From Prevotella sp. (GTDB taxonomy: Bacteria; Bacteroidota; Bacteroidia; Bacteroidales; Bacteroidaceae): a stretch of DNA of 62,608 bases. This document shows, in pieces, positions 4,417 to 62,608 of the stretch. The notes under the pieces are model-generated. The model saw only the letters and a list, made by a program, of their open reading frames with translations, made no database searches and was not told the DNA's origin. The stretch spans positions 1 through 62,608 of the forward strand of contig JAFVFY010000044.1 of assembly GCA_017475265.1 (NCBI GenBank), written 5' to 3'. Both the position numbers and the translations under genes were made by a program. Within the stretch, counting starts at the first letter, position 1. Each line of letters starts with the position of its first letter.

Positions 4417-4802
4417 TTCCGTTACTATTATCTTTTCTGTTTGGCAATTTCGGGTGCAAAGATACAAAATGTTTCTTGAAAGAAGCACTTTTTGCAAGAA
4501 ATTGTTTGTTATCCTTCACGAGTGGCTAAACTACTCTCCTAAAGAAAACCGTTTTCTCTACTAGAGAAAGCCGTGCTCTGATTCTTAACACAAATTGCCA
4601 CGAATTCAAGTTGCGAATTGGACGGATTGCACGGATTCCTCTTAACCACGAATTTGACGAATTACACGAATTGCACGGATTGGACGAATGATCCAGTCCG
4701 TGCTTTTTGGTGACAGAAAAAATGAAGATTAATTTGGAGGTTTGGAATATAATTCGTAACTTTGCGGCCAGTTAATGATAACAATACATAAATCTTACGA
4801 CT
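4417..4802. other. Intergenic region with CACGAATT/CGGATT repeats and a divergent promoter
   Basis: On the minus side GCAAAGATA near 4456 reads TATCTTTG, a -7 box for the membrane protein. A run of degenerate AATTCGTG/ATCCGTGC-type repeats occupies 4588-4710. On the plus side TTTG (4733-4736), a 20-nt gap and TAACTTTG (4757-4764) form a good promoter for the dockerin protein. No further ORF supported. Confidence 0.6.
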
Positions 4803-6908: not shown

Positions 6909-7029
6909 TTCAACAACGGATTTTACGGATTACACGGATTTTACGGATAATAATTGATTTCACGGATTTTTACGGAGATAATAATAAATCCGTGAAAATC
7001 CGTGAAATCAGTTTTAATCCGTTGTTGAA
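6909..7029. terminator. Long inverted repeat between convergent genes
   Basis: TTCAACAACGGATT (6909-6922) pairs perfectly with AATCCGTTGTTGAA (7016-7029). Inside, TGATTTCACGGATTTT (6955-6970) pairs perfectly with AAAATCCGTGAAATCA (6996-7011). It lies between the 3' ends of the dockerin gene and the GH36 gene, so a bidirectional terminator is the simplest reading. Its units (ACGGATT) belong to the same short-repeat class as 4588-4710. Confidence 0.65.
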
Positions 7030-7051: not shown

Positions 7052-9226
7052 CTATTTTATTTCAAACACTCTGGAGGCATAGTCCTCCCAGAGGGGCACC
7101 TCGATGCCTACGTCCATGAGGAAACGGCCGGTGAACTGCTTGCCGTTGAGTGAGCAGGGTTTCTCGCCGACGCGGATGTTACGCTCTGTGAGTGTGTAGG
7201 TCTTGTCGGGGTTTAGACCGGCCAGACGCAGACGGGGCAGGAGCTGGTCGCAGAAGTTCTCGGTTTTGTAGACGAAGAGAACGGCCTCACCCTTCAGGCT
7301 GTACATCAGCGCGGCCATGCCCTTGCGGTCGTGGGGGGAGATGAGACGGTAGAGGTCGCCTGTCTGCACGATGGGGCGCAGCCGCTTGTAGTCGGCAAAG
7401 CAGGTGGTGCATTGCTGGCGTTCCTCGTTGGTCATGTCCTTGGGCTGCAGCTCTATGCCGAGGCGTCCACTCATGGCCACATCGCAGCGGAACTTCACGG
7501 GTATGACACGCTTGCCGGTGTTCCAGTAGGGGCAGTGGTTGATGTGGGCGGCCATCGCGTTGGCGGGGAAGAAGAGGCTGGTGCCGTATTGTATATAGAC
7601 ACGTTGCAGGGCATCGGTATTGTCGCTGACCCAGAACTCGTCGAAGTAGGGCAGGAGACCGTAGTTGGCACGTCCACCTCCCGAGGCACAGTCCTGGATG
7701 ACGAGGTCGGGATATTTTGCGCGGATGCGCTGGAGGGTCTTGATGAGTCCCCGGTGGTAGTCTATGTAGATGTTGTTCTGCTTCGACTTTGGCAGGTAGA
7801 GCGAGCCGTAGTTCTGTATGGATGCGTTGGCGTCCCATTTGATGTAGCTGATTTCGGGGTACTGTGTCATCAGGTTGTCGACGATGCTGAAGACGAAGTC
7901 CTGCACCTTGGGATTGGTCATGTCGAGCACAATCTGCGTGCCGCCTCGTCCAAGCTTCATTTCGCGTCCCTTAGCCTGGAGCACCCAGTCGGGGTGCTGC
8001 TCGTAGAGTTCGCTGGTGGTGTTGGTCATCTCCGGCTCTATCCAGATGCCGAACTTGATTTTGCGCTGCTTGGCTGCATCGGTGAGGGCCTTGATGCCGT
8101 TGGGCAGTTTGTTCTTGTCTACCACCCAGTCGCCAAGTGACGAGTTATCGACCTTACGGGGATATTTGTCGCCAAACCATCCGTCGTCCATGACGAAGAG
8201 CTCACCGCCGAAGGCTGCTATGTCGTCCATCATCTTGATGATTTTCTCCTCGGTGATGTCGAGGTAGATGCCCTCCCATGAGTTCAGCAGGATGTCGCCC
8301 GTCTTCATTCCCCGATGGAACATGCCTTCCTTGCGTGCCCAGTTGTGGAAGTTGCGGCTCACGCCACCCATTCCCTCGTCGGAGTAGGTCATGGCCAGAT
8401 GGGGTGTCTCGAAGGGTTCATTGGGCTCCAGCACATACTCGCTGCTGACAGGGTCGATGCCGGCATAGACGTGATGCTCACGGTGGGACATGGTGTTCAT
8501 GCGCAGCTCGTAGTTACCACTCCAACAGAGTGCGAGACCTATGGTGCGGCCTGTCTGTTCCTGGGGACGGCCATCGAGGGAGAGCATCAGTTCGGGAGCG
8601 TCGAGGTGGGAGTTGCGTGCTCCGTCGCTGTTGCGAATGGTTTTGATACCCTTTTTCAGTGGCTCCATCGTCGGCTCGGCTTCGGCTCCCCAGTTGCCAT
8701 GCAGGTGGGTCACCCATACATCGCCCTGCCGCAGGGTCAGTTGTCCGCTGTCGAAGCGTTTCAGGATGATGGCCTTCTTCTCCTGGTGGGATATTTCCGT
8801 CCAGGTCTCGATGACGTCAACGTTCTTGTATGCCTTGTAGAATACTTTTACCGTCAGGGGCATCAGCTTGTCGGTCATCGTGAAAGTGTGGACGACGGCG
8901 GCTGTCTCGTTTCGCGATTCGTAATTGGTAACTTGTAGCTCCAGGTTGAGGTCGCCGTCGAAATGCTGTACCTGCAGAGCTGGCAGCTGGACGGCATCTA
9001 CGGTGCCGTAGGCGGGTAGGGCGTGGAAACTGAGGTCGTCGCCGGCATTGCGCAGCTCTTGCAACGTGGCACTCTTGTTGCCATAGTACGACTGGTGCAG
9101 GTCGCCACCTTCATTTGCGGTGAGCAGCAGCTGCGTGTTGGGGGTCTCGATGGTGACTTCACCCTGCCAGGCAAACGTGGCCAGGGGTAAAAGGGTGAAC
9201 AGGGAAAAGAAAAGTTTTGCTTTCAT
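7052..9226 (-). CDS. GH36 alpha-galactosidase
   Basis: 724 aa from the ATG at 9226, which begins a clear signal peptide (MKAKLFFSLFTLLPLATFA); the longer reading from 9403 is out-of-frame GH2 sequence. An N-terminal beta-sandwich is followed by a TIM barrel with MDDGWFG (346-352), the nucleophile in YIKWD (D465) and the acid/base in SDNTD (about D535), all typical of GH36. It removes alpha-1,6-galactose side chains, here probably from galactomannan oligosaccharides, in the periplasm or at the surface. It is the last gene of the operon GH26, epimerase, GH2, GH36, with a 4-nt gap to GH2. Confidence 0.93.
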   Translation of the reverse strand: MKAKLFFSLFTLLPLATFAWQGEVTIETPNTQLLLTANEGGDLHQSYYGNKSATLQELRNAGDDLSFHALPAYGTVDAVQLPALQVQHFDGDLNLELQVTNYESRNETAAVVHTFTMTDKLMPLTVKVFYKAYKNVDVIETWTEISHQEKKAIILKRFDSGQLTLRQGDVWVTHLHGNWGAEAEPTMEPLKKGIKTIRNSDGARNSHLDAPELMLSLDGRPQEQTGRTIGLALCWSGNYELRMNTMSHREHHVYAGIDPVSSEYVLEPNEPFETPHLAMTYSDEGMGGVSRNFHNWARKEGMFHRGMKTGDILLNSWEGIYLDITEEKIIKMMDDIAAFGGELFVMDDGWFGDKYPRKVDNSSLGDWVVDKNKLPNGIKALTDAAKQRKIKFGIWIEPEMTNTTSELYEQHPDWVLQAKGREMKLGRGGTQIVLDMTNPKVQDFVFSIVDNLMTQYPEISYIKWDANASIQNYGSLYLPKSKQNNIYIDYHRGLIKTLQRIRAKYPDLVIQDCASGGGRANYGLLPYFDEFWVSDNTDALQRVYIQYGTSLFFPANAMAAHINHCPYWNTGKRVIPVKFRCDVAMSGRLGIELQPKDMTNEERQQCTTCFADYKRLRPIVQTGDLYRLISPHDRKGMAALMYSLKGEAVLFVYKTENFCDQLLPRLRLAGLNPDKTYTLTERNIRVGEKPCSLNGKQFTGRFLMDVGIEVPLWEDYASRVFEIK

Positions 9227-9230
9227 AGTT

Positions 9231-11921
9231 TTAATAGGGTGAAATGTTATTGAGTTCTTCCAAATGGGCCTCGCTGACTTTGGTTGTGAAGAGCTGGCGA
9301 AGCTGGTCGGGGGTGATGGTCGTGGTGGGGGCGAAGGCTTGGGAGTGCATGTAGTTGAGCACGGTGGCATAGAACTGTCGGCCCTCGGGATATTCGCTTG
9401 CACGCTCTAGGTCGCTCATGACAACGAGCAGACGGCCCTTGCCAACCTGCAACTCGAAGACGAGGCCCAGCTTGTGGTTACGCTCGACGTTGTCAATGAC
9501 CTGGACGATGGGGAGTTGAGAGTTGAGAGTTCTTGCTCCGACGGACTCCGCAAGCGTCCCGTTGGGCCGAGCGGAGATTTGAGATTTGGGGTTTGAGGTT
9601 TGAGATTTGTGAGATGAGAGTTTAAAGAGATTATCGAGAATGAAGGGATGGCTCCACTTCACCACTGGCCACCATTGCCAGGAGGTATGCTCTTCGGTAG
9701 GGAAGTCTTTGAACAGGGGATGATATGGGTCGCAGAGCAGACCGAGGGTGCCGGGAGAGACAGGCTTCTTTTTGTTCTCTGAGATGGTCTTGAACATGCG
9801 GTAGTTCCAGTAATCGGTCTGGAAGAGACCACCGACACAGAGGTCTGTGGAGTCGGGCATGAGCAGCACCTTGGCACCTTTCCGTAGCTTACGGGTGATG
9901 TCGTCGGTCAAGTCCTTGGAGATGATGATGCCTTTCTTGTTTAGCTTCACTTCGTCGGGATAGGCCCAGAGGTCGTAGGTGTTCTGGTAGTTGGCGACGT
10001 GAAGTGTCAGTTTCAGTTGCGTGGCCTGTTTCAGGTGGGAGAGGTCGATGTCGATGTTGCCTATTTCGAGGAGACCTTCACCATCGGGGATAGGGAGTTC
10101 GCCCTGCTGTCCGGCACATTCCCAGCGTACCTTATTATTATGCAGGGAGCTGCCGCCGTAGTTGGCCACTTGTATCTTTCCGTGTATGCCCTCGCTGAAG
10201 GTGAAGCAATAGGCATCGCTGACCAGCAGCGGCACGACGGGGGAGCAGAACTGTCGCCATTCCTCTGGGGTGCAGATGGCTTTCGACTCCATGAAGGCAT
10301 CGAGGATGCCCACGTAGGCCGAGCCCTGGCCAGGATAGTCCTGTAGGTCGAGAAGCTGGAAGCCCGCCATGTTAGGCGTGCGCAGGTCCATCTCGATGTC
10401 TTGCTTGTAGAGCAGGTACGACCATCGGCCGCTGGCGCGGTGGAATGCTTCGGCTTGGTCGGCCATGCCTGCCTGTTCCAGTCGCCGACGGAACACCTCC
10501 ATGTTGCAGGGGCGCAGCACACCTGTGTATTTCTTGATTTCGTTGTAGTCGGGATAGGTCTGGAACTGTCCTGTCTCGTGGCTGATAATGGGCACGCTGC
10601 TTCGTGCGCAGCCTTCCTCAAAGTTCATCTTAGCGTTGGGACGGAAATGGTTGATGATACCACCGTCGAAGGCATCGGCAAAGGAGAACGAACCACGGGT
10701 GTGAGTGTCGTAGCTGCCCCAAGCCTCACCACCAACGCGACAGGTGGTAAAGTATTCCATGCCAGGCTTTTCTCCCTGATAGCCTAAATAATAGTTGGAA
10801 CCAAAGGTGTAGAGCTTGTCGGGGGCGATGCTGCGGAAGTCATCGACGAACTCCTGCATCTTTTCGATGCTGCCCCATAGCTCGTTGCCCAAGGCAAACA
10901 TACGGAACGAGGGATGATGACCATACCAGCGCAGGATGTTCTCACCCTCCTTGTGCAGGAACGTCATGAGCAGGGTGTCCTTTGCGTTGAAGTCGCCCCA
11001 GAAGGGAAGCTCGGGCTGGAGGATGATGTGGAGGGAGTCGGCAGCTACAAAGGCGGCTTCAGGCGGGCACCAGCTGTGGAAGCGCACATGGTTGATGCCG
11101 TAGTCGGCGCAGGTGCCTAAGTAGTCGAGCCACGACGGAACGTCCATAGGCACATGACCCGTCAGCGGCCAGACACAGGCATCGTGCTTGCCTCGAAGGA
11201 AGATGCGGTGACCGTTTTGGATGAATTGAGAATTGAGAATTGAGAGTTCTTGCTCCGACGGGCTCCGCAAGCGTCCCGTTGGGCCGAGCGGAGAGTTGAG
11301 AGTTGAGGATTGAGAGTTGAGAGTTGAGGATTGAGAGTTGAGAGTTGAGGGGGGAGCAAATTCTTCACTATCCACCCTTAGCTCTATCCTTCCGATGATG
11401 CCGTTCCAGTTGGTCTGGGTGTCCTCGGTGCAGGCATGACTGCTGGCATAGAGCTGGGTGGGGATATGACTGCCGTTGTCTACCATGATGGTAAGCACAT
11501 GGTGGCCTGAGGCTATGGGGTGGGGTAGGGCATAGCGTTGTGGCGTCGAGAGGTCATTACTACTGCCAATGAGCTGCCCGTCGATATAGACCTCGGTGTA
11601 TTTGGTGCGTTCCAGGAGGAGGGTGACAGGCTTGCATGCCCACTCTTCTGGGATGTTGATTTCGCGACTGTACCAAGCACGGCCTTTGTAGTAGTAGCGA
11701 CGGCTAAGGTGGGTGGTCTCGTCGAAACGGTTGAGGGGCCTGCCTTTCTGGTTCGTGTCAGTGGTTCCTGGGAGTGTCACCACATCATCCAATAACGAGG
11801 AGGCCGTCAATGTGCTGTCGGGGTCAAGGGCAAAGTGCCACTGACCCGCAAGACTCATAGTGGGTGAAGCTTCGCCCACTAAGGGGAGCAGGTAGAAGAG
11901 GAGGATGAGGAGGCTTTTCAT
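9231..11921 (-). CDS. GH2-family glycosidase carrying two embedded repeat tracts
   Basis: 896 aa with a signal peptide. The sugar-binding jelly roll (SLAGQWHFALD onward, to about residue 185) and the TIM barrel are recognisable, with acid/base Glu in GNELWG and probable nucleophile in SHETGQ. Members are beta-galactosidases, beta-glucuronidases or beta-mannosidases; in this operon a beta-mannosidase or beta-galactosidase role is likely. Between the two domains, where GH2 enzymes normally have an Ig-like domain, there is instead a low-complexity tract (STLNSQS repeats) encoded by 11224-11351. A second such tract is encoded by 9511-9620. The start overlaps the epimerase stop by 4 nt. Confidence 0.85.
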   Translation of the reverse strand: MKSLLILLFYLLPLVGEASPTMSLAGQWHFALDPDSTLTASSLLDDVVTLPGTTDTNQKGRPLNRFDETTHLSRRYYYKGRAWYSREINIPEEWACKPVTLLLERTKYTEVYIDGQLIGSSNDLSTPQRYALPHPIASGHHVLTIMVDNGSHIPTQLYASSHACTEDTQTNWNGIIGRIELRVDSEEFAPPSTLNSQSSTLNSQSSTLNSPLGPTGRLRSPSEQELSILNSQFIQNGHRIFLRGKHDACVWPLTGHVPMDVPSWLDYLGTCADYGINHVRFHSWCPPEAAFVAADSLHIILQPELPFWGDFNAKDTLLMTFLHKEGENILRWYGHHPSFRMFALGNELWGSIEKMQEFVDDFRSIAPDKLYTFGSNYYLGYQGEKPGMEYFTTCRVGGEAWGSYDTHTRGSFSFADAFDGGIINHFRPNAKMNFEEGCARSSVPIISHETGQFQTYPDYNEIKKYTGVLRPCNMEVFRRRLEQAGMADQAEAFHRASGRWSYLLYKQDIEMDLRTPNMAGFQLLDLQDYPGQGSAYVGILDAFMESKAICTPEEWRQFCSPVVPLLVSDAYCFTFSEGIHGKIQVANYGGSSLHNNKVRWECAGQQGELPIPDGEGLLEIGNIDIDLSHLKQATQLKLTLHVANYQNTYDLWAYPDEVKLNKKGIIISKDLTDDITRKLRKGAKVLLMPDSTDLCVGGLFQTDYWNYRMFKTISENKKKPVSPGTLGLLCDPYHPLFKDFPTEEHTSWQWWPVVKWSHPFILDNLFKLSSHKSQTSNPKSQISARPNGTLAESVGARTLNSQLPIVQVIDNVERNHKLGLVFELQVGKGRLLVVMSDLERASEYPEGRQFYATVLNYMHSQAFAPTTTITPDQLRQLFTTKVSEAHLEELNNISPY
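9511..9620. repeat. Embedded repeat element, copy 1 (inside GH2)
   Basis: TTGAGAG-type 7-bp repeats flank a core that begins TTCTTGCTCCGACG and ends GGGCCGAGCGGAGA (core 9525-9576). The core differs from copy 2 by one base in 52. It stays open in the GH2 frame, read as SARPNGTLAESVGARTLN. Confidence 0.85.
11224..11351. repeat. Embedded repeat element, copy 2 (inside GH2)
   Basis: Same core (11242-11293) flanked by about eleven 7-bp TTGAGAG/TTGAGGA units. It is read in a different frame from copy 1 (PLGPTGRLRSPSEQELS), yet is still open. This shows that the DNA, not the peptide, is what is conserved. Confidence 0.85.
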
Positions 11922-13342
11922 GCGAAGCGTTCAATCGTTTCCAGGCACATACGGCTGTTGTGGTAAGGGCATTTCCAGAAGCCAGCATGGTCATCGTCAA
12001 GGTTCAGCGTACCGTCGTCGTGGCGGCTCCAATACCACTCGCCATGCTCGTAGTCGATGAGGTTCTGCTTGATATACTCCCAGCAGCGGGATGCTCTCTG
12101 CAATGCCTCCTCGTCGCCGAAATACTGATAGATGTTCAGCCACCCTACCACGTTCTCGGCCTGTACCCACCAGTGCAGATCATCGTCCGTTGACCATTCT
12201 TGCGTCCCGTTGGTAGCAAGCGTCCTTCGGCCGAGCGGACCATTGACCGTTGATCTTTTTATTTCGTGAATCATCGAACCGTCTGGACGCAGCCCCTTTG
12301 CTGAAGCCTTTGCCACCATCTGTACAATCGGCTCCACCTTCTCCAGCACCTTCTTGTCGCCCAGCACCAAGGCGGTCTCATGCATCAGCCACGAACATTC
12401 TATGTCGTGACCATAGCTTTCCATCTGTCCACCACCACGTGTCCAGTCCATATTGAAGAATAGGTCGAGATGGTGGGTGTCAGGATTAAGGATGCGGTCG
12501 GTGAAGATGTTGATAAGGTTGCGCAGCGAAGCCTCCACCCTGTCAATCGTTTCCTGAGCTACGGAAATACCTATCGGGAGCACAGCTCCAACAACGGGCA
12601 CATAGTTGCAGTTGGGCGATTCAGCCTCCTGGAACTCTTTGAGGCAGCGGTAGAGGTTTGTGTATGGCTCGATGATGTGCAGGTGTGTGTTCTGCGATTT
12701 GGGGAAGTTGGCATCCAACTCCGATAACCGCATGTCGGCAATCTCACCCCACTCTCTGGTGCAGGCCTCTATGTAACCATTGTGCTCTCTGTCCAAGGCG
12801 TGCTCCTCTATGCAGTCGTATAGTTGCAAGGCATAGTCCAGAGCCTCACGGTCGCCTGTGGCACGGGCATACTCCGAAAGGCCATAGATGGCAAAGCCGA
12901 TGGCATAGAACTGTTTCTTGGTGTCGAGGGGCTGACCTTTGTAGTCCAGGCTCCAATAGACACCGCCATACTCTGGGTCGATGAAATGCTCTATGAAGTA
13001 GTCCTTCGCCCGGGTGGCAGCGTCCAAATATAATTGAGGGTTGAGAGTTCTTGCTGCGCAAGCGTCCTTCGGCCGAGCGGAGGGTTGAGGGTTGAGAGTT
13101 GAGAGTACGCGGTATGCTGCCGAGAATGACCATAGGATGCGGGCGTTGAGGATGGCACCCTTCTCTGCCTCAGGATGCAGTTGATGATGCCCGTCCATAC
13201 GACCGTAGAAACCACCGTTCTCCGTGTCCTGCATCTTGTCGAGCCAGAAGCGCAGGATGTTGTTCTCTAGCACATCCAACATCTCGCTCCTCATCCTTTT
13301 TATCGTTTCATTCATCGTCTCTTCATTCGATTTAAGTTTCAT
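11918..13342 (-). CDS. AGE-family 2-epimerase (cellobiose/mannobiose type)
   Basis: 474 aa without a signal peptide, so cytosolic. The (alpha/alpha)6-barrel family is recognised from NNILRFWLDKMQDTENGGFYG, GGVYWSLDYKG, the ESYGHDIECSW motif and the C-terminal HAGFWKCPYHN region. It converts the reducing-end sugar of a beta-1,4-disaccharide to its 2-epimer, for example mannobiose to mannosylglucose for later phosphorolysis. No GH130 phosphorylase is in the window. Two embedded repeat tracts interrupt the protein (13033-13106 and 12189-12255). The start may be 13342 or the internal ATG at 13315 (MNETIKR). Confidence 0.88.
   Translation of the reverse strand: MKLKSNEETMNETIKRMRSEMLDVLENNILRFWLDKMQDTENGGFYGRMDGHHQLHPEAEKGAILNARILWSFSAAYRVLSTLNPQPSARPKDACAARTLNPQLYLDAATRAKDYFIEHFIDPEYGGVYWSLDYKGQPLDTKKQFYAIGFAIYGLSEYARATGDREALDYALQLYDCIEEHALDREHNGYIEACTREWGEIADMRLSELDANFPKSQNTHLHIIEPYTNLYRCLKEFQEAESPNCNYVPVVGAVLPIGISVAQETIDRVEASLRNLINIFTDRILNPDTHHLDLFFNMDWTRGGGQMESYGHDIECSWLMHETALVLGDKKVLEKVEPIVQMVAKASAKGLRPDGSMIHEIKRSTVNGPLGRRTLATNGTQEWSTDDDLHWWVQAENVVGWLNIYQYFGDEEALQRASRCWEYIKQNLIDYEHGEWYWSRHDDGTLNLDDDHAGFWKCPYHNSRMCLETIERFA
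12189..12255. repeat. Embedded repeat element, copy 3 (inside the epimerase)
   Basis: TGACCATT/GACCGTTGA units flank a core with TTCTTGCGTCCCGTTGG and a 22-bp stretch (12217-12238, CAAGCGTCC to CCGAGCGG) identical to the one in copy 4. The protein reads GPLGRRTLATNGTQE here. Confidence 0.8.
13033..13106. repeat. Embedded repeat element, copy 4 (inside the epimerase)
   Basis: TTGAGGG/TTGAGAG units flank a shorter core, TTCTTGCTGCGCAAGCG to CCGAGCGGA. It is read as STLNPQPSARPKDACAART, placed just before the motif LYLDAATRAKD that is normally adjacent to RVL in this family. Confidence 0.85.
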
Positions 13343-13393
13343 ATTTACTTAAGTTTAATTTCCTTAACTTCTTTAGCTCCTTTAACTTATCAA

Positions 13394-14500
13394 CTATTCA
13401 ATATCCTTGAGGAACAAAGATTTCTCTGCATCGTAGAATTCCTTGAAATACGGAGCATCGGGCTGGGCTGGCGACGGGCCGAACCATTCCTTCTTGTAGT
13501 TGCGCCATACCAGGAGGTAGCTGATGGGGTACTTGTCTACGACGGGCTGGAGCGACGAAACCCACCATGTGGGGTCGGTGAGGTTCTTCAGTCCGCACTC
13601 GGTGAGGGCCGCTATCTTCCCACGTTTTTCAGCAAAGGCGCAGAGCATTTGCAGGTTCTGGTCTAGTTGTGACATGAAGTCTTCCTTCGTTCCCCACTGA
13701 TAACCGTCGATGCCAACGAGCTGCACACGGTCGTCACCAGGATAGCGTTCCAGGTATTTCTCTTCCGTCAGGTCGGGAGCCATACCAGGGGAGTAGGCCC
13801 AGAGCAGGTTGCTGAAGCCGTCGGCTGTCAGCTTGTCCTGTAGCATGTTCCATAGTTCCTTGTATTCCTCAGCCGTGCAGAGCTTCTCACCCCACCAGAA
13901 CCACGAGCCGGTGTTCTCGTGCCATGGGCGGAAGATGATGGGGATGGGCTCTCCTTCCTGCGTCTTCAGCGTGGAGAGGAAATCGCTCATTCGCTGCATC
14001 CACAGTTGGAACTTCTCATGTTGTGTGCCACTGGGCAGGATGTTCTTTACGACGGTAGAGTCGCTAACGTCCCAGGCGGTGCCCTCGGGCCATGTGCCTC
14101 CTTGCTCTGTTGTGGTCACGGGGTTGCGTGGATGCCAGCTCAGGGTGATGATGCCACCTCGTTCGTAGTGCTTGATGACCTCTTCGGTGATGCGGCTGAA
14201 AGGAACGCTGTCGAGACTCAGGTCATCGCCCATCTCAATGCCACCCAGCTCGAATCCCATGACGGCAGGATAGTCGCCGCAGGTGTTCCTCACATCGCTG
14301 CTGTCCTGCTCATACTCCCACGTCAGTCCGTACATCGGGTCATCCTGATGCCCGAACATGTAGCCCTTCTGTCTCAGGCTGTCCAATCGCTCCACCAACT
14401 GTTGAGCTGGTGTTTTCTCCATTTCGGCGGCCTCTTTCTGTCCACCACATGCCGTCAGCACTAGAGCTGCTACGGCCATTCCAATCAATACTTTTTTCAT
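13394..14500 (-). CDS. GH26 endo-beta-1,4-mannanase lipoprotein
   Basis: 368 aa, lipoprotein signal (LTACGG, Cys18), so probably surface or periplasmic. The clan GH-A catalytic pair of GH26 is visible: acid/base E195 in RPWHEN and nucleophile E301 in LTECG. SWHPRNP near residue 121 is also typical. It cleaves internal beta-1,4-mannosidic bonds. It is the first gene of the operon GH26, epimerase, GH2, GH36, and its promoter region shares a motif with the esterase gene. The 51-nt gap to the epimerase suggests one transcript. Confidence 0.93.
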   Translation of the reverse strand: MKKVLIGMAVAALVLTACGGQKEAAEMEKTPAQQLVERLDSLRQKGYMFGHQDDPMYGLTWEYEQDSSDVRNTCGDYPAVMGFELGGIEMGDDLSLDSVPFSRITEEVIKHYERGGIITLSWHPRNPVTTTEQGGTWPEGTAWDVSDSTVVKNILPSGTQHEKFQLWMQRMSDFLSTLKTQEGEPIPIIFRPWHENTGSWFWWGEKLCTAEEYKELWNMLQDKLTADGFSNLLWAYSPGMAPDLTEEKYLERYPGDDRVQLVGIDGYQWGTKEDFMSQLDQNLQMLCAFAEKRGKIAALTECGLKNLTDPTWWVSSLQPVVDKYPISYLLVWRNYKKEWFGPSPAQPDAPYFKEFYDAEKSLFLKDIE

Positions 14501-39487: not shown

Positions 39488-42400
39488 ATGAGAAAGATGA
39501 CAAAGAAATTACTCCTTTCCGTGTTGCTCCTGTTTGTGGGAGTAAGCATGCAGGCTCAGTCTGTTGCTACCGAGCAGATGGACGAGCGGTTTAATGACGG
39601 TACGAAGATGCCTTTCGGCTGGTTTGGCGAGGGCTGGAAGGTTGACGATGGCAAGGCAAAGTCAGAAGCCACCGACGAGTCCTCCGGCTTCGATTTCAGC
39701 CAAATGATGAACATGAATCAAGAGAACAGCGAGGGGACGCCCAACATGATGCAAGGTATGTTTGGCGGCCCACGCTACAGGACCTATCTGCTCACCCCGC
39801 CTGTGGTGGTGAAAGACGGAGAGAACCTGGTGTTCAGCGCCAGCAAACCCAGTGGCGACGACAATGGCATGGGCTTCAGTTTCGATATGAAGGCTATCAT
39901 GGGGATGACCGACACCATCTTCGTGGTGGAACGTTCCGTCTATGGCCGGAACCAGTGGGTGCGCGTAGGTGACTTTACGACGACGCTCAACAACGAGTTC
40001 CAGACGTTCACTATTTCGGGCACACCCGCAGGCGAATACCGTTTCCGATTCGTGTCGTATGTCAATGCTGAGATAGACAGCGTGGCGGGTTTCCACATCG
40101 ACAACGAGGCGCCCGATCTGCTCGTGACGGTCGATAGCCTGCACACCCGCTTTGTAGATTACAGCGTTTGCGATGAGGACAGCACCAAGGAGTTCATCCT
40201 CATCAATACGGGAACGGGAACGCTGAAGGTGAACATCGAGTCGAGAGACCCTGAGCTGTTCAGCCTCGATCAGAGCCATTTCGAAATTGCCGCCGGCGAC
40301 TCTGCCAAGCTGAACGTCACGTTCAACTATGGAGCAGGCGAGATTGGGAAGAACGAGAGCATGATCAATTTCATTTGTGAGGATACCCGTCTGTTTGGTA
40401 CAAACATCACCGTCGCTGCCCTCATCACCGACCCAGAGGTCTGGGCTACCGACTTTAACGACGACCAGATGCCTTTCGGCTGCTTTGGCGAGGGTTTCGT
40501 GGTGAAGGAAGGCGTTGCCACGCACTATAATCCTGCTGGCGGCGGCATGGCTGCTATGGCGGCCATCTTTGGCGGCGGCGGGGCAAGCGACTGGTTCATG
40601 ACGCCCCCGCTGACCATTCAGGGCGTTAACGATGCCGTGGTCTTCTCGCTGAAGAATGGCGACGGCAGCTATAAGGGTCCCATCATCGACCCGCAGGCCA
40701 ACGTGACCATCGAGAAGACCATCTACGGCAGCAACGAGTGGGAGCGCGTGGATGCCTATCAGCTCACCGACACCCTTTACCACACGAAGTGGATTGCCTG
40801 GCTCCCGGTCGGCGACTACCGCTTCCGATTCGTATCTGGCGACAGCCTCTGCATCGACAGCATTGCAGGAGGGCGCATCAACATGAATGCTCCCGACCTG
40901 CTGGTGCGCCACAATGGAAGCAGCGTGCAGACGGTGAACTACGGCATTTGCTGCGGCAACCAGACCAAGACCTTCCAGCTTATCAATACGGGTACGTCGG
41001 AATTGCAGCTCTATGCCATGTCGAGCGATCCTGCGTTCTACAGCCTGAGTCAGCAGATGTTCAGCATCGCTGCCGGAGAATCGGCCACCGTCGACGTAAC
41101 CTTCAACTTCGACCCCGTGGCTTTGGGCGCCCATCAGGCAGCACTCGTACTGATACCGCAAAACTGCCAGATTGCCACACAGATGGTCTACCTGTCGGCC
41201 TACATCACTTACGAAGATGCCTGGACCGAGGACTTCGAGCCTGAGTTCGTGGTCGAGGAAGGCGAAACCGTAGACCTGCCCATAGGCTGGAGCACCACCG
41301 GCTGGCAGATTATCAAGGGCGGCGGCATGGACATGATGGCGATGATGGGCATGGGCGGCGGAGAGAAGTCGTGGGCTCCTCATACCGATAACGATGCATA
41401 CAACCTCATCACGCCGAGCCTGCAGGCCAGGAAGGGCGACGTGCTCCGCTTCTATGCCGACATCAGCAGCGGTTGGCTCAACCTGTTCTACAAGTGCGAA
41501 GACGACGCCGACTGGATCTACCAGAACACTTATATCACTGCCGACTCTATCTACTTCATCGCGCCACTCACGGGCATCTACCAGTTGAAGTTCACCGGCA
41601 GCTCAGTAGCCGTCGATGACTTTGTCGGCTTCCTGAAGCCTATGCAGGGGGCAACCCTGATGGATGACAGCGCGTTCGATGGTCAGAACGCCGAAGTGAT
41701 AGAGCACTTCGAGGGTCAGAAGGTAAATGTCTACTACGACCGTGTACTCTCCGCCGTAAACAATGGCTACGGTTCGTGGACGCCAAAGGCATATACGCTC
41801 TGCCTGCCCTACGAGTTCCGTTTTGGCGAGCTCATAGAGCCGGGCAAGGTGAAGTTCTACCAGCTCTCATTCGTCGATGACTACTACAAGCAGTTCGTCT
41901 TTACCGCCGTCGCCGACGTTGCCGAGGCGGGAAAAGCTTACCTCGCCGTGGTGGAAGAGGGCGACGTCAGCCTGAATGCGTATAACGTAACTCTCAACTC
42001 TCAACACTCAACTCTCAACCCTGTTTACGACTACGCCGACTGGTTCTTCAACGAGAATCTGACGAAGGTGGGCCAGTGGCAGGGCAGTTTCAAGAGCATC
42101 AGTGCCTCCGAGGCCGACGAGAAGAACATGTATTGCCTGCTCGACGACGGCTCGTGGGTACGCTTCACCTCAGAAGACAATCCTGACACGAAGCTCAATG
42201 CCTTCCGAGCATACTTCCTCTCTGATGAACCCGCCGAAGTAGTAGCCAACGCTTCCCAGCGTGGGAACATCGCCGAAGAAGTAGTAGCCCACACTTCCCA
42301 GCGTGGGAACATCGCCGACAACACCGTCAAGGTGTTCCGCACTCTGTTCAGCAACGCCGGCGTAGCCAATGTGAGCGACAGCAACGTACCCGATGCCTCC

Positions 42401-44761: not shown

Positions 44762-45975
44762 ATGATTCGATTAAGAGAGAGCAAAGCAAACGCGTTTGCT
44801 TTGCCGAACGTGAGAATTATCGCCTGAAAGGCAAAAAGGTATTAGCCGCAGTGCTGATGAGCTTGACGCTCACGGCCTGCACGACGAAGAGTAACAACGA
44901 ATTGAACGAATTAAACGAATTGAATAGCATGAATACGACATTGAATCTGACTCAGGAGTGGGACAAGGTGTTCCCCAAAAGTGACAAAGTAGACCACAAG
45001 AAGGTCACGTTCAAGAACCGCTACGGCATTGAACTGGCTGCCGACATGTATACCCCCCTCAATCCCCCCGAGGGAGGGAAATCTCCCGCCATCGCCGTCA
45101 GTGGACCGTTCGGAGCCGTAAAGGAGCAGTGCTCTGGTCTCTATGCCCAGCACATGGCAGAGCGTGGATTCATAACCATCGCCTTCGACCCTTCGTTCAC
45201 TGGCGAGAGCGGTGGCGAGCCTCGCCGCATGGCCTCGCCCGACATCAACACGGAGGACTTCCTCGCAGCCGTCGATTTCCTCTCCGTGCAGGACAATGTT
45301 GACCCAGAGCGCATCGGTATCATCGGCATCTGCGGATGGGGAGGAATGGCCATCAACGCCGCCGCCCTCGACCCACGCATCAAGGCCACCGTTGCCTCGA
45401 CAATGTACGACATGAGCAAGGTGAACGTGGAGGGATACTTCAAGAGCGAGGACACCAAGGAGCAGCGCATGGCTAAGCGCAAGGCCATAGCCGCCCAGCG
45501 TACGGAGGACTTCAAGGCAGGTTCCTACAAGCGTGCAGGTGGTGTCATCGACCCGCTGCCCGAGGATGCACCTTTCTTCGTGAAGGACTACTACGACTAC
45601 TACAAGACCCCTCGCGGCTACCACGAGCGTAGCGGCAACTCAAACGACGGCTGGAACGTCATCGGCTGTCAGTCGTTCCTCAACCAGCCCCTGTTGGCCT
45701 GGGCGCACGAGATTGAGTCGCCCGTGCTGCTCATCCACGGCGAGAAGGCCCACAGCCGCTACTTCTCTGAATACGCATTCGAGAAGATGACGGGCACCAA
45801 TCCGCAAGGCAAGAGCATGACCATCGGCCGCTCGGCCGAAGGACGCTTGTACACTTACAAGAATAAGGAACTGCTGATCATCCCCGATGCCGTCCACACC
45901 GACCTCTATGACGACAAGAACGGCAAGATTCCTTACGACAAGATGGAACAATTCTTCCGCGAGAACCTGCACTAA
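44758..45975 (+). CDS. Exported alpha/beta hydrolase with Cys in the nucleophile elbow
   Basis: 405 aa. The first 25 residues are unusually polar and are encoded over a perfect palindrome (44781-44804); then comes a lipoprotein signal (LTLTACTTK). Core motifs: SGPFGAVKEQC, FDPSFTGESGGEP, and elbow GIICGWG-like GICGWGG in which Cys replaces Ser, as in dienelactone hydrolases. Later LLIHGEKAHSR (acid region) and PDAVHTDLYD (His). Substrate unknown. Three repeat elements lie inside the frame (44781-44804, 44893-44925, 45052-45078) and a 22-bp core match at 45828-45849. ATGA overlap couples it to the flavodoxin gene. Confidence 0.82.
   Translation: MNDSIKREQSKRVCFAERENYRLKGKKVLAAVLMSLTLTACTTKSNNELNELNELNSMNTTLNLTQEWDKVFPKSDKVDHKKVTFKNRYGIELAADMYTPLNPPEGGKSPAIAVSGPFGAVKEQCSGLYAQHMAERGFITIAFDPSFTGESGGEPRRMASPDINTEDFLAAVDFLSVQDNVDPERIGIIGICGWGGMAINAAALDPRIKATVASTMYDMSKVNVEGYFKSEDTKEQRMAKRKAIAAQRTEDFKAGSYKRAGGVIDPLPEDAPFFVKDYYDYYKTPRGYHERSGNSNDGWNVIGCQSFLNQPLLAWAHEIESPVLLIHGEKAHSRYFSEYAFEKMTGTNPQGKSMTIGRSAEGRLYTYKNKELLIIPDAVHTDLYDDKNGKIPYDKMEQFFRENLH
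44781..44804. repeat. Perfect 12-bp-arm palindrome in the hydrolase N-terminus
   Basis: GCAAAGCAAACG directly followed by its reverse complement CGTTTGCTTTGC, read as SKRVCFA. It lies in the abnormal extension before the signal peptide. Confidence 0.9.
45052..45079. repeat. C-rich repeat inside the hydrolase gene
   Basis: Shares 20 identical bases with 21582-21601 (intergenic, susC-susD). Read as TPLNPPEGGK in a surface-loop position. Confidence 0.88.
45828..45849. repeat. Inverted copy of the embedded-element core in the hydrolase gene
   Basis: 22 bases identical to the reverse complement of 12217-12238 and 13059-13080. Read as GRSAEGRL. Flanking 7-bp repeats are absent here. Confidence 0.8.
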
Positions 45976-46206
45976 ACGACCACGGATTGCACGGATTCAA
46001 CGGATTATCTTTTGACCACGAATTTTTGGAGTAGCGAGTGCAGTGCCAAGCTTGCTTGAGTACTGCCGAGTCACGACAAAAAAGGACAATATCAATTACA
46101 CGAATTTCACGAATTAGGAGCAGCCCGCACCCTGGGATGCTCCTTTCTCATGTGTTGTGGGCTCCATCCGAGGTTCTTCGAGATTTTGTGTTGGTGGAAG
46201 AAAAAA

Positions 46207-52082: not shown

Positions 52083-52336
52083 GGATACAGAGTCCCCACC
52101 CCTGACCCCTCACACCCCTCCCCGGCCTTACGGCCACCCCTCCCCTCCGCTCGGCATCCCGAAGGGTGATGCTTGCTACCAGCGGGACGCAAGAAAGGGG
52201 CGGGTTCGGTGACATGATTATTGGGAGAAAATTTGGGAAGACTGAAAGATTTATGATAATAAAACTTCGGGAGGCCGCCGCTGAATCGCCAGCATCGGCC
52301 TCCCGAATCTCTTTCCCGTCTGTACCTTATTATATG
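52083..52336. other. Intergenic region with an element core and a terminator
   Basis: 52090-52145 is C-rich (CCCCACCCCTGACCCCTC type). 52145-52194 carries, on the minus strand, the embedded-element core TTCTTGCGTCCCGC to CCGAGCGGA. TTCGGGAGGCCG (52266-52277)/CGGCCTCCCGAA (52296-52307) is a hairpin followed by GTTTTATTAT on the minus strand and likely ends the Rpn gene. Confidence 0.7.
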
Positions 52337-57795: not shown

Positions 57796-59385
57796 ATGAA
57801 AAGACTGATTCTTTCTCTTATTGCACTGGTCATGATGCAAAGTGCCATTGCAGATGATAGGTTGTCGATGTTGCCGTGTCCCATCCTTGGCGGTGAGTTG
57901 AGTAACTCAGCTGCTACTTCGGTGGAGGACATCGACGAAGTGATGCCTCGGATGCGGGCGTTGGGACTGAACACGGTGCTTGTGCCAGCCTATTGGGAAT
58001 TGATGGAGCCTGTAGAGGGGAAGTTCGACTTCACACTCATCGACCGTACCATCGATGTGGCGCGGCAGGAGTATTTGCACGTGGTGTTCCTTTGGTTTGG
58101 CGCGTGGAAGAACTCGATGTCATGCTATGCGCCAGGGTGGTTCAAACAGGACACGAAGCGGTTCCCACGAGCAATGACTGCCGAGGGGAAGCAGATGGAG
58201 ATTGCCTCGTGTTTCAGCGACAATGTGCTGCAGGCCGACCTGAAAGCGTTTTCAGCACTCATGCGGCATATCCGTGAGAAAGACCCGCAGCGTGAGGTGG
58301 TCATCATGATGCAGATAGAAAACGAGATTGGTATGCTGGAGTCGGCACGCGACCATTCGCCGTTGGCGGAGAAAACATACAAGCAAGAACGTTGGGCAGA
58401 GCGCTACGGTACGGATGAGTATGCTGATGAGAAGTTCATGGCATTGAGCTATGCCCGCTACGTGGAGCATCTGGCCAAGGCTGCCCGTGAAATCCACGAC
58501 ATGCCGCTCTACGTGAATGCCGCGATGAACAGCCGTGGGCGCCGGCCTGGCGAGTATCCCTCGGCAGGGCCGTTGGCGCATCTCATCGACTTCTGGCACG
58601 AGGGAGCACCGAGTATCGACCTGCTTGCTCCTGACATCTACGACACTGGCTTCAAGTCGTGGTGTGCGCAGTATGCGATGCCTTTGCGTCCGCAGGAGGG
58701 AGGTCCAATTAAGAACCGTCTCTTTATCCCAGAGAGCCGTTGCTGCGAGAACAGTGGTGTACGTGCTCTCTATGCCTTCGGCGAGCATCAGGCTTTGGGT
58801 TTCTCGCCCTTCGCTATCGACCAAGCCAGCCCAAAGGAAACAGAATCCGTGACAAAAGCCTACGGGCTGCTCAAGCAAATTGTAAATTGTAAATCGTTAA
58901 ATCGTAAATTGTCATGGGGTTTACTCTTTGATCAAGAAGACCGTGAGCGTATCATCAACGATGACGACGTGGTAATGACCTGCCGCCATTACTTCACACT
59001 CCCTTGGGATCCTCGTGCTACTGACGGTTCTACTTGGCCAGAGGGTGGCGCTATGCTCATTCGTCTCGGCAAGTTTGATTATCTGTTGGCAGGTAGCGGT
59101 GTGGTCATCGACTTCAAAACCCCTACGGAGAAGCAACAAACTGAGCAGAAACAGTTAGGCGAGGACGGTTTCGCCGAAGCAGGCGGAGCAATGGTCAATG
59201 TTCAATGGTCAATGTTCAATGGAAAGCGTCTCGGCCTTCTTTCTGTTGATGAAGTCGAAATGGACTCTACTGGCACCATACAATACCTCCGACGTCACAA
59301 TGGTGACCAAACCCATCAAGGCCGTCACGCCCGCATCGGCGTCGGCGAGTGGAAACTGCTCCACATCCTTCTTTATGAATATTAA
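57796..59385 (+). CDS. GH35-like beta-galactosidase (DUF5597 type)
   Basis: 529 aa with a signal peptide. Barrel motifs NTVLVPAYWELMEPVEGKFD (about 55-75), acid/base Glu in MMQIENEIG (about 173-181) and probable nucleophile in RLFIPESRC (about 313-321). A C-terminal beta domain follows. The relation to GH35/GH42 beta-galactosidases is clear; substrate not certain. Two embedded repeats lie in the frame: 58877-58912 (IVNCKSLNRKLS) and 59191-59222 (MVNVQWSMFNG). Confidence 0.83.
   Translation: MKRLILSLIALVMMQSAIADDRLSMLPCPILGGELSNSAATSVEDIDEVMPRMRALGLNTVLVPAYWELMEPVEGKFDFTLIDRTIDVARQEYLHVVFLWFGAWKNSMSCYAPGWFKQDTKRFPRAMTAEGKQMEIASCFSDNVLQADLKAFSALMRHIREKDPQREVVIMMQIENEIGMLESARDHSPLAEKTYKQERWAERYGTDEYADEKFMALSYARYVEHLAKAAREIHDMPLYVNAAMNSRGRRPGEYPSAGPLAHLIDFWHEGAPSIDLLAPDIYDTGFKSWCAQYAMPLRPQEGGPIKNRLFIPESRCCENSGVRALYAFGEHQALGFSPFAIDQASPKETESVTKAYGLLKQIVNCKSLNRKLSWGLLFDQEDRERIINDDDVVMTCRHYFTLPWDPRATDGSTWPEGGAMLIRLGKFDYLLAGSGVVIDFKTPTEKQQTEQKQLGEDGFAEAGGAMVNVQWSMFNGKRLGLLSVDEVEMDSTGTIQYLRRHNGDQTHQGRHARIGVGEWKLLHILLYEY
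58877..58912. repeat. Embedded TTGTAAATTGTAAATCG repeat in the GH35-like gene
   Basis: About four units of AAATTGT/AAATCGT. The reading frame gives QIVNCKSLNRKLSW, unlike its surroundings. Confidence 0.82.
59191..59222. repeat. Embedded ATGGTCAATGTTCA repeat in the GH35-like gene
   Basis: Units of ATGGTCA/ATGTTCA, read as MVNVQWSMFNG. The same class occurs in GH3 at 60727-60758 and beside copy 3 in the epimerase gene. Confidence 0.85.
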
Positions 59386-59598: not shown

Positions 59599-61974
59599 AT
59601 GAAAAAACTAATCCTGACAGCCCTTGCTGCAACAATCTGCATGGTGACAATGAATGCACAGCCTAAACTTTCGGCAAACAACATCGACGAGGTAATGAAG
59701 GCCATGACTCTGGAAGAGAAGGCCAAGCTGCTCGTCGGCGGTTCAAACAACTTCTTCGGCGACCAGGCCGCTGTCGGCGGTGAGGCCGACCTCGTGGCCG
59801 GTGCTGCCGGCACGTCGCCCGCCATCCCCCGCCTTGGCATTCCGGCAACGGTGCTGACCGACGGCCCCGCCGGCGTGCGCATCGACCCCACGCGAAAGGG
59901 CACCACCCAGACCTATTATGCCACGGGATTCCCCATCGGCACTTGCTTGGCATCGACGTGGAACACGGAGCTTGTAGGGAAAGTGGGCGAGGCCATCGGC
60001 AACGAGACCAAGGAGTACCGCTGCGACGTGATTCTCGGCCCGGGCATGAACCTCCACCGTAACCCTCTCTGCGGACGAAACTTTGAGTACTACTCGGAAG
60101 ACCCGTTCCTGACAGGAAAGATTGCCGCCGCCTACATCAATGGTGTGCAGAGCCAGGGGGCGGGCGTGTCGGCAAAGCACTTCGCCGTGAACTCTCAGGA
60201 GACCGAGCGCACCAGCGTTGACGAGCGGGTGAGCCAGCGTGCCCTCCGCGAGCTCTACCTTCGCGGCTTCGAGATTGCCGTCCGCGAGAGCAACCCGTGG
60301 ACCATCATGGCATCGTACAACAAAATCAACGGAGAGTTCTCCATGGGCAACCGCGACCTGCTGACGAGCATCCTGCGCGACGACTGGGGATTCAAGGGTA
60401 TCGTGATGACTGACTGGATTGGCATACGCAAGGGGTTGCCTACCATCACCGAAGTGCAGGCTGGCAACGACCTGATGGAGCCCGGTCAGCCGGCGCAGGT
60501 GAAAGAAATCGTTGAGGGCGTGAACAGCGGCAAGCTCTCGATGGCCGATGTTGACCGCAACGTGCGCCGCATGCTGGAGTACATCGTGAAGACGCCGAGC
60601 TTCAACAACTATCCCGCCACCAACAAGCCTGACCTGAAGGCACACGCTGCCATCACCCGGCAGACGGCCTGCGAGGGCATCGTGCTGCTGAAGAACAACG
60701 GCACACTCCCCTGGAACACCAAGAAAATGGTCAATGGTCAGTGGTCAATGGTCAATGTTGCAACCGTCGCCCTCTTCGGCGAGAACTCCTACAACTTCCT
60801 TTCCGGCGGCGTAGGCTCTGGCTGTGTGCACACGCCTTACGTGGTTGATATGGTGGAGGGCCTGAAGAACGCGGGTATCAAATCGTCGGAGACCCTGACC
60901 GACATCTACCGTAAGTATATCGACTATGCACGTCTGAAGTTCCAGGTCGAGCGTCATCCCGCCAAGTGGTTTCAGACTGAGGCCATGGGTCCGCAGAAAT
61001 ATCCTGAGATTGCCCTGAACACCATCGCCATCAACAAGGAGGTAAGGGGTGCCGATGCCGCCATCATCACCATCGGCCGACAAGCCGGTGAGGGCATCGA
61101 CCGCGACTTAGAGACGGAGTTCAACATTATTCCTGAGGAGCGTCAGCTCATCATCGACGTTTGCCAGGCTTTCCATGCCGCCGGCAAGCCCGTCATCGTC
61201 ATCATCAACAGCGGCTCGGTCATCGAGACGGCTTCGTGGAACAGCTATCCCGACGCCATTGTCTGTGCATGGCAGCCCGGCGAGGAGGGTGGCAACTCGG
61301 TGGCCGACATCCTGACGGGCAAGGTGAACCCCTCAGGCCGTCTGACCATGACGTGGCCCCTCGCCGCCACCGACCATCCCTCCACACATAACTTCCCCGG
61401 TATGGTCGACTTCTACAGCTATCAGATAATGCGGGGAGGCGGCAGAGAGATGCCCAACTACGACTACACGAACCACGACGAGGACATCTTTGTGGGCTAC
61501 CGCTATTTCGACACCTTCCAGAAAGAGGTGTCCTATCCCTTCGGCTTCGGTCTCTCCTACACCACCTTCGATTTCTCCCAGCCGAAGGCCAAGGTGAATG
61601 GCGATAACGTCGACGTTACCATCACCGTCAAGAACACCGGCAATGTCAGCGGCAAGGAGGTGGTTCAGGTCTATGTCACCGCTCCTGACGGCCAGTTGCA
61701 AAAACCCGCTCAAGAGCTGAAAGCCTTTGCCAAGACCCGCGAGCTACAGCCCGGCGAGAGCCAGACGCTGACGATGGAGATTCCCGTCCGTATGTTGGCC
61801 TCATTCGACGAGCAGGGCAGCCAGTGGCTAACCGAGGCAGGAGACTATACATTCAGGATAGGTTCTTCCAGCCGCGACATCAAAGCAACAGCCACCGCCA
61901 AGGTCGGTCAGTACACGGAGAAGGTGAGCAACGCCCTGGCGCCCAACGCAAAGCTGAAACTGCTCCAGCAATAA
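59599..61974 (+). CDS. GH3-family beta-glucosidase
   Basis: 791 aa from ATG 59599 (MKKLILTALAATICMVTMNA, signal peptide); the in-frame ATG at 59560 lies inside the promoter leader. N-terminal TIM barrel with LTDGPAGVR (87-94), KHFAVNSQE (193-201) and nucleophile D272 in IVMTDWIG, then the alpha/beta sandwich and a C-terminal fibronectin-like domain (SYPFGFGLSYTTFDF onward). An embedded repeat at 60727-60758 gives KMVNGQWSMVNV between the two main domains. Periplasmic release of glucose or related sugars. Confidence 0.93.
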   Translation: MKKLILTALAATICMVTMNAQPKLSANNIDEVMKAMTLEEKAKLLVGGSNNFFGDQAAVGGEADLVAGAAGTSPAIPRLGIPATVLTDGPAGVRIDPTRKGTTQTYYATGFPIGTCLASTWNTELVGKVGEAIGNETKEYRCDVILGPGMNLHRNPLCGRNFEYYSEDPFLTGKIAAAYINGVQSQGAGVSAKHFAVNSQETERTSVDERVSQRALRELYLRGFEIAVRESNPWTIMASYNKINGEFSMGNRDLLTSILRDDWGFKGIVMTDWIGIRKGLPTITEVQAGNDLMEPGQPAQVKEIVEGVNSGKLSMADVDRNVRRMLEYIVKTPSFNNYPATNKPDLKAHAAITRQTACEGIVLLKNNGTLPWNTKKMVNGQWSMVNVATVALFGENSYNFLSGGVGSGCVHTPYVVDMVEGLKNAGIKSSETLTDIYRKYIDYARLKFQVERHPAKWFQTEAMGPQKYPEIALNTIAINKEVRGADAAIITIGRQAGEGIDRDLETEFNIIPEERQLIIDVCQAFHAAGKPVIVIINSGSVIETASWNSYPDAIVCAWQPGEEGGNSVADILTGKVNPSGRLTMTWPLAATDHPSTHNFPGMVDFYSYQIMRGGGREMPNYDYTNHDEDIFVGYRYFDTFQKEVSYPFGFGLSYTTFDFSQPKAKVNGDNVDVTITVKNTGNVSGKEVVQVYVTAPDGQLQKPAQELKAFAKTRELQPGESQTLTMEIPVRMLASFDEQGSQWLTEAGDYTFRIGSSSRDIKATATAKVGQYTEKVSNALAPNAKLKLLQQ
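60727..60758. repeat. Embedded GGTCAATGGTCAGTGG repeat in GH3
   Basis: Four to five units of ATGGTCA/GTGGTCA. Inserted in frame at the start of the second domain, between WNTKK and VATVALFGENS. Confidence 0.87.
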
Positions 61975-62023: not shown

Positions 62024-62446
62024 AATAAGCTATCAAGGAGAACCGTCCCCGCTGATTTCCACAATCTTATCACTTGCTGCCACAACACTCTCCGAGGTTC
62101 ATTTGTTCTTCCTGTCCACTGAGTTCTTGCCATTGACGATATAGACTCATTGCTGAAATGTAAAGAAAAAGTGCAGAAAAAAGTACTCCTAAAAGATGAT
62201 CATCTAGCATAAAAACCTGGCCAAAACGACTGTTTTTTGCATGAATCGCGCTTCATAGTCCTGCACAAATCCCCCTCTTTTGTGCAGAAAGTGACTTAAA
62301 ATTACATAAACTTAACACTTACTTGCCCCTATTTCGCTTAAAACTGCTGTTTTTCGCGGTTGGGAAATACCCCGAAAAAGGGTGTTCGAGGCGTCCGTTG
62401 GTGCCTTTTTGGAGCCAAACAGCCAGTCTAATGGTAGTAAGTGAGC
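62024..62446. other. Gene-free region with small hairpins
   Basis: No ORF of substance. A perfect 9-bp hairpin CTGCACAAA (62261-62269)/TTTGTGCAG (62279-62287) with a C-rich loop, GATGATCATC near 62198, and ACCCC-GAAAAA-GGGT near 62369 suggest a structured, possibly transcribed leader to the array that follows. No known RNA family recognised. Confidence 0.5.
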
Positions 62447-62600
62447 GGGTTTGTTCAACAAAAGCACTGGTTTTGTTCAACAAAAGCTATGGTCTTGTAC
62501 TACAAAAGATATGGTCTTGTACTACAAAAGATATGGTCTTGTACTACAAAAGATATGGTCTTGTACTACAAAAGATATGGTCTTGTACTACAAGACCACC
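62447..62600. repeat. 22-bp tandem palindrome array C at the right end
   Basis: Seven contiguous 22-bp units start at 62447, 62469, 62491, 62513, 62535, 62557 and 62579. Units 1-2 have core TTTGTT-C-AACAAA; units 3-6 read GGTCTTGTACTACAAAAG plus ATAT; unit 7 is the perfect palindrome GGTCTTGTA-C-TACAAGACC followed by ACCTTTTT. There are no unique spacers, so it is not a CRISPR. Confidence 0.93.
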
Positions 62601-62608
62601 TTTTTCGG

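Follow-up and report, generated by a model that had tools for sequence, protein, structure and literature searches.

We examined a 62,608-nucleotide contig of Prevotella sp. (GenBank assembly GCA_017475265.1, contig JAFVFY010000044.1, hereafter the window) and a short repeat within it, here termed X. We conclude that X is probably a small, non-autonomous, mobile palindromic repeat. It packs two hairpins into 30–49 bp and carries no gene of its own. Its mobility is inferred, on the grounds that copies are dispersed, that empty sites are exact and that X nests in other repeats. Copies occur inside and between genes, and many sit within arrays of 7-bp tandem repeats (heptads). An earlier sequence-only reading of the window had noticed repeat cores in two adjacent enzyme genes and likened them to a Rickettsia element. 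That observation is confirmed, and its interpretation is partly supported.

Borders, copies and hosts of X

The repeat begins at the C of CTTGC and ends with the final G of GAGCG. Hairpin 1 (CTTGC...GCAAG) is followed by hairpin 2 (CG.CCC...GGG.CG) and then AGCG. We count six copies of X in the window and 85 in the sampled stretches of the source genome, where its length is 30–49 bp. Stretches L114–L143 and L338–L377 of that genome were selected for holding pattern matches. Several genome counts used patterns that fix the end CCGAGCGG; borders were counted with patterns that leave it free. With flanking bases left free, TT precedes CTTGC in 79 of 85 left halves, and T in 84. GGCCGAGC is followed by G in 67 of 69 right halves, and this G is counted as the last base of X. 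The next base, 3' of X, is G in 47 of these 67, A in 10, C in 9 and T in one. Hence, the target of X is TT^, and the 3' base is not fixed.

Across the whole source genome, the left-half pattern has 95 matches versus 4 in a backward control. The right-half pattern has 71 versus none. These counts exclude chance. Twelve relatives, hand-picked for high counts from a search of the genus, hold 19–31 copies per genome (0–1 in the control). That search found a match in 307 of 398 genomes, of which only high counts are meaningful because the backward control gives 0–10 per genome. Dominant hairpins vary among the six genomes listed, with CACTGCGTG in G304, CCCTGCGGG in G207 and CCCATAGGG and CACAGAGTG in G358. 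Some types, CCTTCGG for example, recur between genomes. The differing dominant hairpins point to amplification of X within lineages.

The sequence-only reading had proposed an element of the order Bacteroidales. In an order-level search, 17 of 295 genomes matched, the source genome included. The remaining 16 had one match each, with a middle unlike X, and the backward control matched 7 genomes or a few more. X is a dispersed repeat, as proposed, but one genus alone, rather than the order, has it above background. The genus limit is provisional, as the sample held just three further genomes from this family.

The insertion site is seen most directly in a hydrolase gene. Six orthologues (L279–L284, 81–91% protein identity) are uninterrupted; the empty site in L280, for example, reads ATCGGC-AACAAGGAG. 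The window has 33 additional bases, which are X on the other strand. Insertion is in frame, with nothing duplicated and nothing lost. Sites within arrays were assessed among 160 copies of X, which come from fetched stretches of 13 genomes, mostly six or seven of them, and are not a random sample. In 21 of these, clear arrays flank X on either side, and in all 21 the removal of X restores the array at offset 0 (16 arrays of period 7, five of period 8). Among the offsets tried, −3 to +3, none does better. Target-site duplication was found neither at the clean hydrolase site nor across the arrays. X also nests within the loops of other X-like copies, and in another palindromic repeat at AATTT^GCTACCGC.

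Hairpin 2 keeps its pairing through compensatory changes. Among 24 distinct 9-nt versions from seven genomes, 97.5% of cells are paired, and the covariation score is 0.255; neither value was reached in any of 500 shuffles. One pair is C–G in 14 versions, A–U in six, G–C in three and unpaired in one. The covariation count covers hairpin 2. The variable loop of hairpin 1 led MAFFT to misalign that hairpin. Tabulated instead, its stem comprised five matched types and four mismatched. An Rfam search of window positions 9000–13800 returned a miRNA as its sole match, far below the gathering score.

Four of the six copies in the window lie in the two genes originally noticed. These are a GH2-type enzyme gene (9231–11921, minus strand) and an adjoining cellobiose 2-epimerase-like gene (11918–13342, minus strand), each with an NCBIfam match below the curated cut-off. 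Repeat cores are found at 9530, 11247, 12197 and 13048, all on the plus strand, as are their heptads. Copy 1 (42 bp, 9532..9573) is read antisense by the GH2 gene and belongs to an extra tract after HPFILDN. TTGAGAG heptads lie 5' of it (9511..9531) and GATTTGA/GGTTTGA-type heptads 3' (9574..9623). Copy 2 (42 bp, 11249..11290) lies in the same gene in another phase, between TTGAGAA heptads (11223..11248) and TTGAGAG/TTGAGGA heptads (11291..11353). Copies 1 and 2 differ by one base in a 46-base core, and their different phases give SARPNGTLAESVGAR and PLGPTGRLRSPSEQE.

The epimerase gene holds copy 3 (39 bp, 12199..12237), within short TTGACCR heptads (12187..12198 and 12238..12255). It also holds copy 4 (30 bp, 13050..13079), within TTGAGRG heptads (13034..13049 and 13080..13106), in a tract of ~20 residues. 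All four tracts are real, but TTGAGAG-type repeats do not describe the one at 12197. Copies 5 and 6 are on the minus strand and have no heptads. Copy 5 (33 bp, 45829..45861) is the clean in-frame insertion in the hydrolase gene. The 22-base exact recurrence first noticed there is present (13059–13080 and, inverted, 45828–45849), although the second match belongs to a full 33-base, heptad-free element. Copy 6 (46 bp, 52148..52193) lies downstream of a gene and corresponds to the diverged copy placed at 52145–52194. Because copy 5 has no heptads, and tract 3 is built of another heptad, core and heptads are separable.

Hosts include GcvPA, GcvT, PrmA and MtaB, which have NCBIfam matches above cut-off, and the GH2 gene. 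By their sequences, further hosts look like a GH43 enzyme, a sulfatase, glycosyltransferases and an MBOAT protein. The core is not confined to the genes in which it was noticed, being found at dozens of unrelated loci.

Orthologues, whose alignment the sequence-only reading had suggested as a way to the insertion borders, are without the tracts, and no target duplication was seen. Of thirty alignments, 29 cross an insert site and one stops short of it; none of the 29 has X. The gcvPA gene lacks X in 5 of 5 genomes. Other sequence occupies the same loop in gcvT (G034 and G040), prmA (G071) and mtaB (G119). The mtaB-like gene of G119 (L318) has a short tandem repeat that encodes TTGDTP-type units at the loop that holds X and heptads in the source genome. 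For epimerase tract 4, the loop is short in 65 of 80 relatives and holds a longer insert in 15, several of them visibly different repeats. Tract 3 is seen only in the window, and one relative (L047) has an unrelated insert there. Two solved cellobiose 2-epimerases align without either tract. The GH2 tract at 9511–9623 is missing from all five orthologues found among 80 loci, and the second GH2 site is a variable linker. Since tract 4 took the place of about four residues, array arrival is less clean than arrival of X. Judged by these alignments, the insert sites are variable stretches that look like surface loops.

Period-7 arrays and tolerance of X in genes

The repeats that host X differ by genome. 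They are TTGAGAG in the source genome, TTGAACA and TTGTAAA in G358, TTGTCCG in G180, TTGAGCG in G207 and G287, and 8-mers such as TTGTTTAG in G304. Period-7 arrays are also found apart from X, and so are independent of it. We counted 62 of period 7, seven of period 9 and none of period 5, 6 or 8 in 261 kb of the source genome (the window and L114–L143), counts biased by the choice of stretches for pattern matches. Around the epimerase gene in 80 named relatives (988 kb), there are 32 arrays of period 7, 14 of period 8 and none of period 5 or 6. The same 988 kb holds a single weak X-like match.

Away from X, the source stretches contain 39 period-7 arrays: 20 coding, 13 unclear and 6 non-coding. 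Three X-free arrays of the window lie inside coding sequence on the minus strand, at 41989..42019, 59189..59221 (TTGAACATTGACCA type) and 60726..60757. Among 19 coding, X-free arrays with a TTGA direction, 17 are antisense. The TTGAGAG strand reads TGA every 21 bases, whereas its complement has no stop in any frame. Since 7 and 3 are coprime, that complement encodes one heptapeptide (LSTLNSQ) in all three frames.

We assigned copies of X to coding sequence using open reading frames and a codon-usage rule. The 85 source copies comprise 36 coding, 25 non-coding and 24 unclear. Coding copies are spread over the three phases (10, 13 and 13), and their lengths are mostly multiples of three (33 of 36, against 12 of 25 non-coding copies; p = 2e-4). 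In the 13-genome set, with 29 of 160 copies unclear, the same holds for 54 of 58 coding and 42 of 73 non-coding copies. Counting identical copies once per genome and class gives 25 of 29 versus 30 of 52 (p = 0.012). One locus in this set, L209, was reassigned from coding to non-coding (X lies before an ATG), and L220, a weak sense-strand coding call, was retained.

Coding copies in the source genome are antisense to X in 34 of 36 cases. We rejected this bias as a property of X because, where the flanks are clearly non-periodic, the coding copies number four antisense and two sense. Since TTGAGAG carries TGA every 21 bases and its complement is open, the bias seems to come from the arrays. Of 58 coding copies in the 13-genome set, 51 have an X free of stops in every antisense frame. 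Coding copies are few in genomes where antisense stops in X are the tendency (1 of 16 in G204, 1 of 19 in G358), and those with open X can have many (18 of 20 in G207, 27 of 43 in the source genome). Predicted X-encoded peptides include SARPKDACAAR and PLGPTGRLPKQE.

The sequence-only reading suggested that the element tolerates or favours coding insertion. At 1500 random positions in the source genome, 874 were coding, 161 non-coding and 465 unclear. With period 7 alone counted as an array, X lacking periodic flanks is depleted in genes (11 coding to 23 non-coding), and X within such flanks is not (25 to 2). A coding preference was therefore rejected. We read the depletion, confined to copies outside 7-periodic flanks, as tolerance rather than preference.

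Possible routes of X movement

TT-adjacent, duplication-free insertion, together with hairpins near the ends, looks like HUH/Y1-type transposition. Elements of the IS200/IS605 type insert 3' of a short fixed sequence, make no duplication and have hairpins near their ends. X shares the adjacency to TT, the lack of duplication and the end hairpins. By this analogy, the insertion chemistry of X may resemble single-strand transposition, acting in trans through an enzyme outside X or already lost. X sits 3' of TT, with neither duplication nor loss at the array-free site compared, and would have amplified within lineages. The arrays may be an independent population of slippage-grown repeats that supply many TT sites. 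X and arrays would survive in genes only where the frame does, X through a length divisible by three and arrays through a stop-free orientation. A more ambitious version joins these steps into a two-layer system, of a kind that the literature matches listed do not describe. Slippage-grown 7-bp arrays would be frame-indifferent landing pads in genes, and TT-targeted X, three-divisible in length, would spread from array to array by some enzyme, adding loop peptides across the genus without frame loss. We put this forward tentatively, as possible rather than probable.

Several observations weigh against the reading of X as a mobile repeat. Movement itself was not observed. The base-exact, array-free empty site comes from one comparison, and the hydrolase loop is variable in distant orthologues, some of which hold other insertions there. 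One pair in hairpin 2 changed on both sides, which falls within the shuffles (490 of 500), as do the further pair types (328 of 500), and the search pattern itself fixes two of the five pairs. Lone copies fold unremarkably as DNA, with |z| < 2 in 7 of 8 and one at −3.3. The excess of three-divisible lengths is partly built in, because the coding rule requires the frame to be open to either side of X. Nor does an open frame suffice for coding insertion, since G034 has open X yet 0 of 13 copies coding, and G304 has 2 of 23. No transposase was found for X, and Y1 matches do not follow copy number. Among genomes hand-picked by count, 7 of the 13 with many copies and 8 of the 15 with none have such a match (6 in each group over the curated cut-off). 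Completeness is 85–99% for zero-copy and 70–99% for high-copy genomes, so that a Y1 gene could go unseen in one of the latter. Absence from any single high-copy genome is weak evidence, because the six with no match are 70–89% complete. Finally, 25 of 27 Y1 loci have no X in the flanks fetched (up to ~1.5 kb).

These Y1 data bear most on a second explanation, that X is a repetitive extragenic palindromic (REP) sequence moved by a resident Y1 transposase of the REP-associated tyrosine transposase (RAYT) type. Short palindromes, insertion next to TT and the lack of duplication would all fit. The source genome has three Y1 matches, one with X at 1.2 kb, and in G204 a degenerate X-like match near position 1228 of L177 lies ~270 bp before a Y1 match. 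Against this, there is no association over the 28 genomes, X has no GTAG end, and nearly all Y1 loci are free of it. The full-length RAYT-like gene of the source genome (contig C37, L031, ~1290–1470 and 1950–2060) is flanked by different palindromes, GCCCCGAAGGGGC with CGGGGGTGCAAGCCCCCGG. On that palindrome and the lack of association we rejected RAYT as the mobiliser, and the explanation as a whole seems to us unlikely. The gene and its own palindromes in C37 are a candidate REP system of this genus. We also rejected as a parent element a pair of inverted X copies that enclose a gene (L129:2828–4310), which we take to be tyrosine-recombinase-like. The arrangement was seen once, both copies of X have TT sites of their own, and there is no NCBIfam match at E 1e-20.

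Tandem-repeat biology alone is a somewhat better rival, though still improbable. Here, X would be an odd array unit that recombination between homologous heptads copies from array to array, without transposition. X and heptads do form composite tandem units, with 44-bp spacing on contig C76. The heptad type is equal on both sides of X, and the register is exact. Copies outside arrays and the clean, repeat-free empty site speak against it. So does the nesting of X in other palindromes, in X-like loops and in 8-mer and other hosts. Selection of the inserted peptides for protein function, as linkers or tags, is very unlikely. Some loops do hold different repeat inserts in different species, but a permissive loop explains such recurrence. 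Three frames give unrelated peptides, the host enzymes are unrelated, and most orthologues compared do without. Least credible of all is action of X at the RNA level, as a bypassed, spliced or regulatory insert that is not translated. Pairing under covariation would suit it; lengths divisible by three in 33 of 36 coding copies and stop-free antisense frames in 51 of 58 would be needless for an insert that is removed or bypassed.

Relation to known repeats and other observations

The best-known cases of palindromic repeats within protein genes come from Rickettsia and Wolbachia. X is a real genus-level variant of such protein-coding repeats, nested in an independent layer of 7-bp arrays. The likeness to Rickettsia palindromic elements (RPEs) drawn by the sequence-only reading holds for a dispersed palindrome found between genes and, in several frames, within them. 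Like RPEs, X inserts in frame into protein genes, and the insertions are absent from orthologues. The likeness fails in that two things are nested here, X inside period-7 arrays. RPEs, compared by description only, are given in the text available as 105–146 bp with a long stem-loop (PMC2229807). X differs in its 30–49 bp, two short hairpins, array nesting and TT target.

CGTC-tagged REPs, as far as the available text describes them, have an 8–9 bp stem with AT pairs first, a 4–5 nt loop and a CCA-like tail, and the short CGTC repeats are taken to include RPE-4 and RPE-6 (Di Nocera 2013, PMC3733652). They too are small palindromes with no dedicated transposase, some intragenic, and are reported there from Bacteroidetes among other phyla (PMC3733652). 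Unlike them, X has hairpin 2 as CG.CCC/GGG.CG with a 3-nt loop in 24 variants, and no CCA-like tail. Its CGTC is internal, not terminal, and is CGGC or CATC in some copies. X is palindromic, short and high in copy like the GTAG REPs that accompany RAYT transposases, but ends in CTTG and GAGCG, with no GTAG, and no tracking with RAYT was found. Unlike miniature inverted-repeat transposable elements (MITEs), X shows no target-site duplication at the clean site or in arrays.

Three reports, each cited from partial text, describe arrays reminiscent of those around X. TAACTGA heptamer arrays are period-7 direct repeats that are reported from five Bacteroidetes too, but their unit is different, they are described as intergenic, and no nested palindrome appears in the text available (PMC4679880). 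The BrickBuilt MITE of Porphyromonas gingivalis likewise joins a tandem repeat to an inverted-repeat element in Bacteroidales, but has 23-nt units and promoter elements and is always intergenic (PMC4596501). Geobacter metallireducens has 49 copies of elements with four heptanucleotide repeats, in and between genes; their sequence differs, and the text available mentions no X-like insert (PMC2700814). No description of X was found among the literature matches listed, a scope that mostly leaves out subscription papers.

X in this large Prevotella-group genome has exact borders, many copies and varied hosts, from glycine cleavage through tRNA and ribosomal protein modification to glycoside hydrolases. 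The contrast between genomes with stop-carrying and open X offers a testable system for DNA added to working proteins. Annotations of such enzymes include repeat-encoded peptides, which is a caution.

Other repeats were seen in passing. A second palindromic family, of AATTTGCTRCC...GGYAGCAAATT type, lies between inverted AAGAGTG/CACTCTT heptads. It is in frame in three epimerase genes (L035, L040 and L077, near 6190–6320) and once follows a gene (L113:7324–7507). Copies of X lie ~400–530 from the starts of source contigs C7, C106 and C57 and of G034 contigs C14, C73 and C28. The similar distance from contig ends looks like a longer multicopy repeat that breaks the assembly. Period-9 arrays of CACGAATT/CACGGATT type, sometimes inverted pairs, occur in the window at 1586–1684, 4647–4690, 6919–6949 and 45976–46116. 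At the contig end, window positions 62429–62604 form a 22-bp tandem array (TTGTACTACAAAAGATATGGTC).

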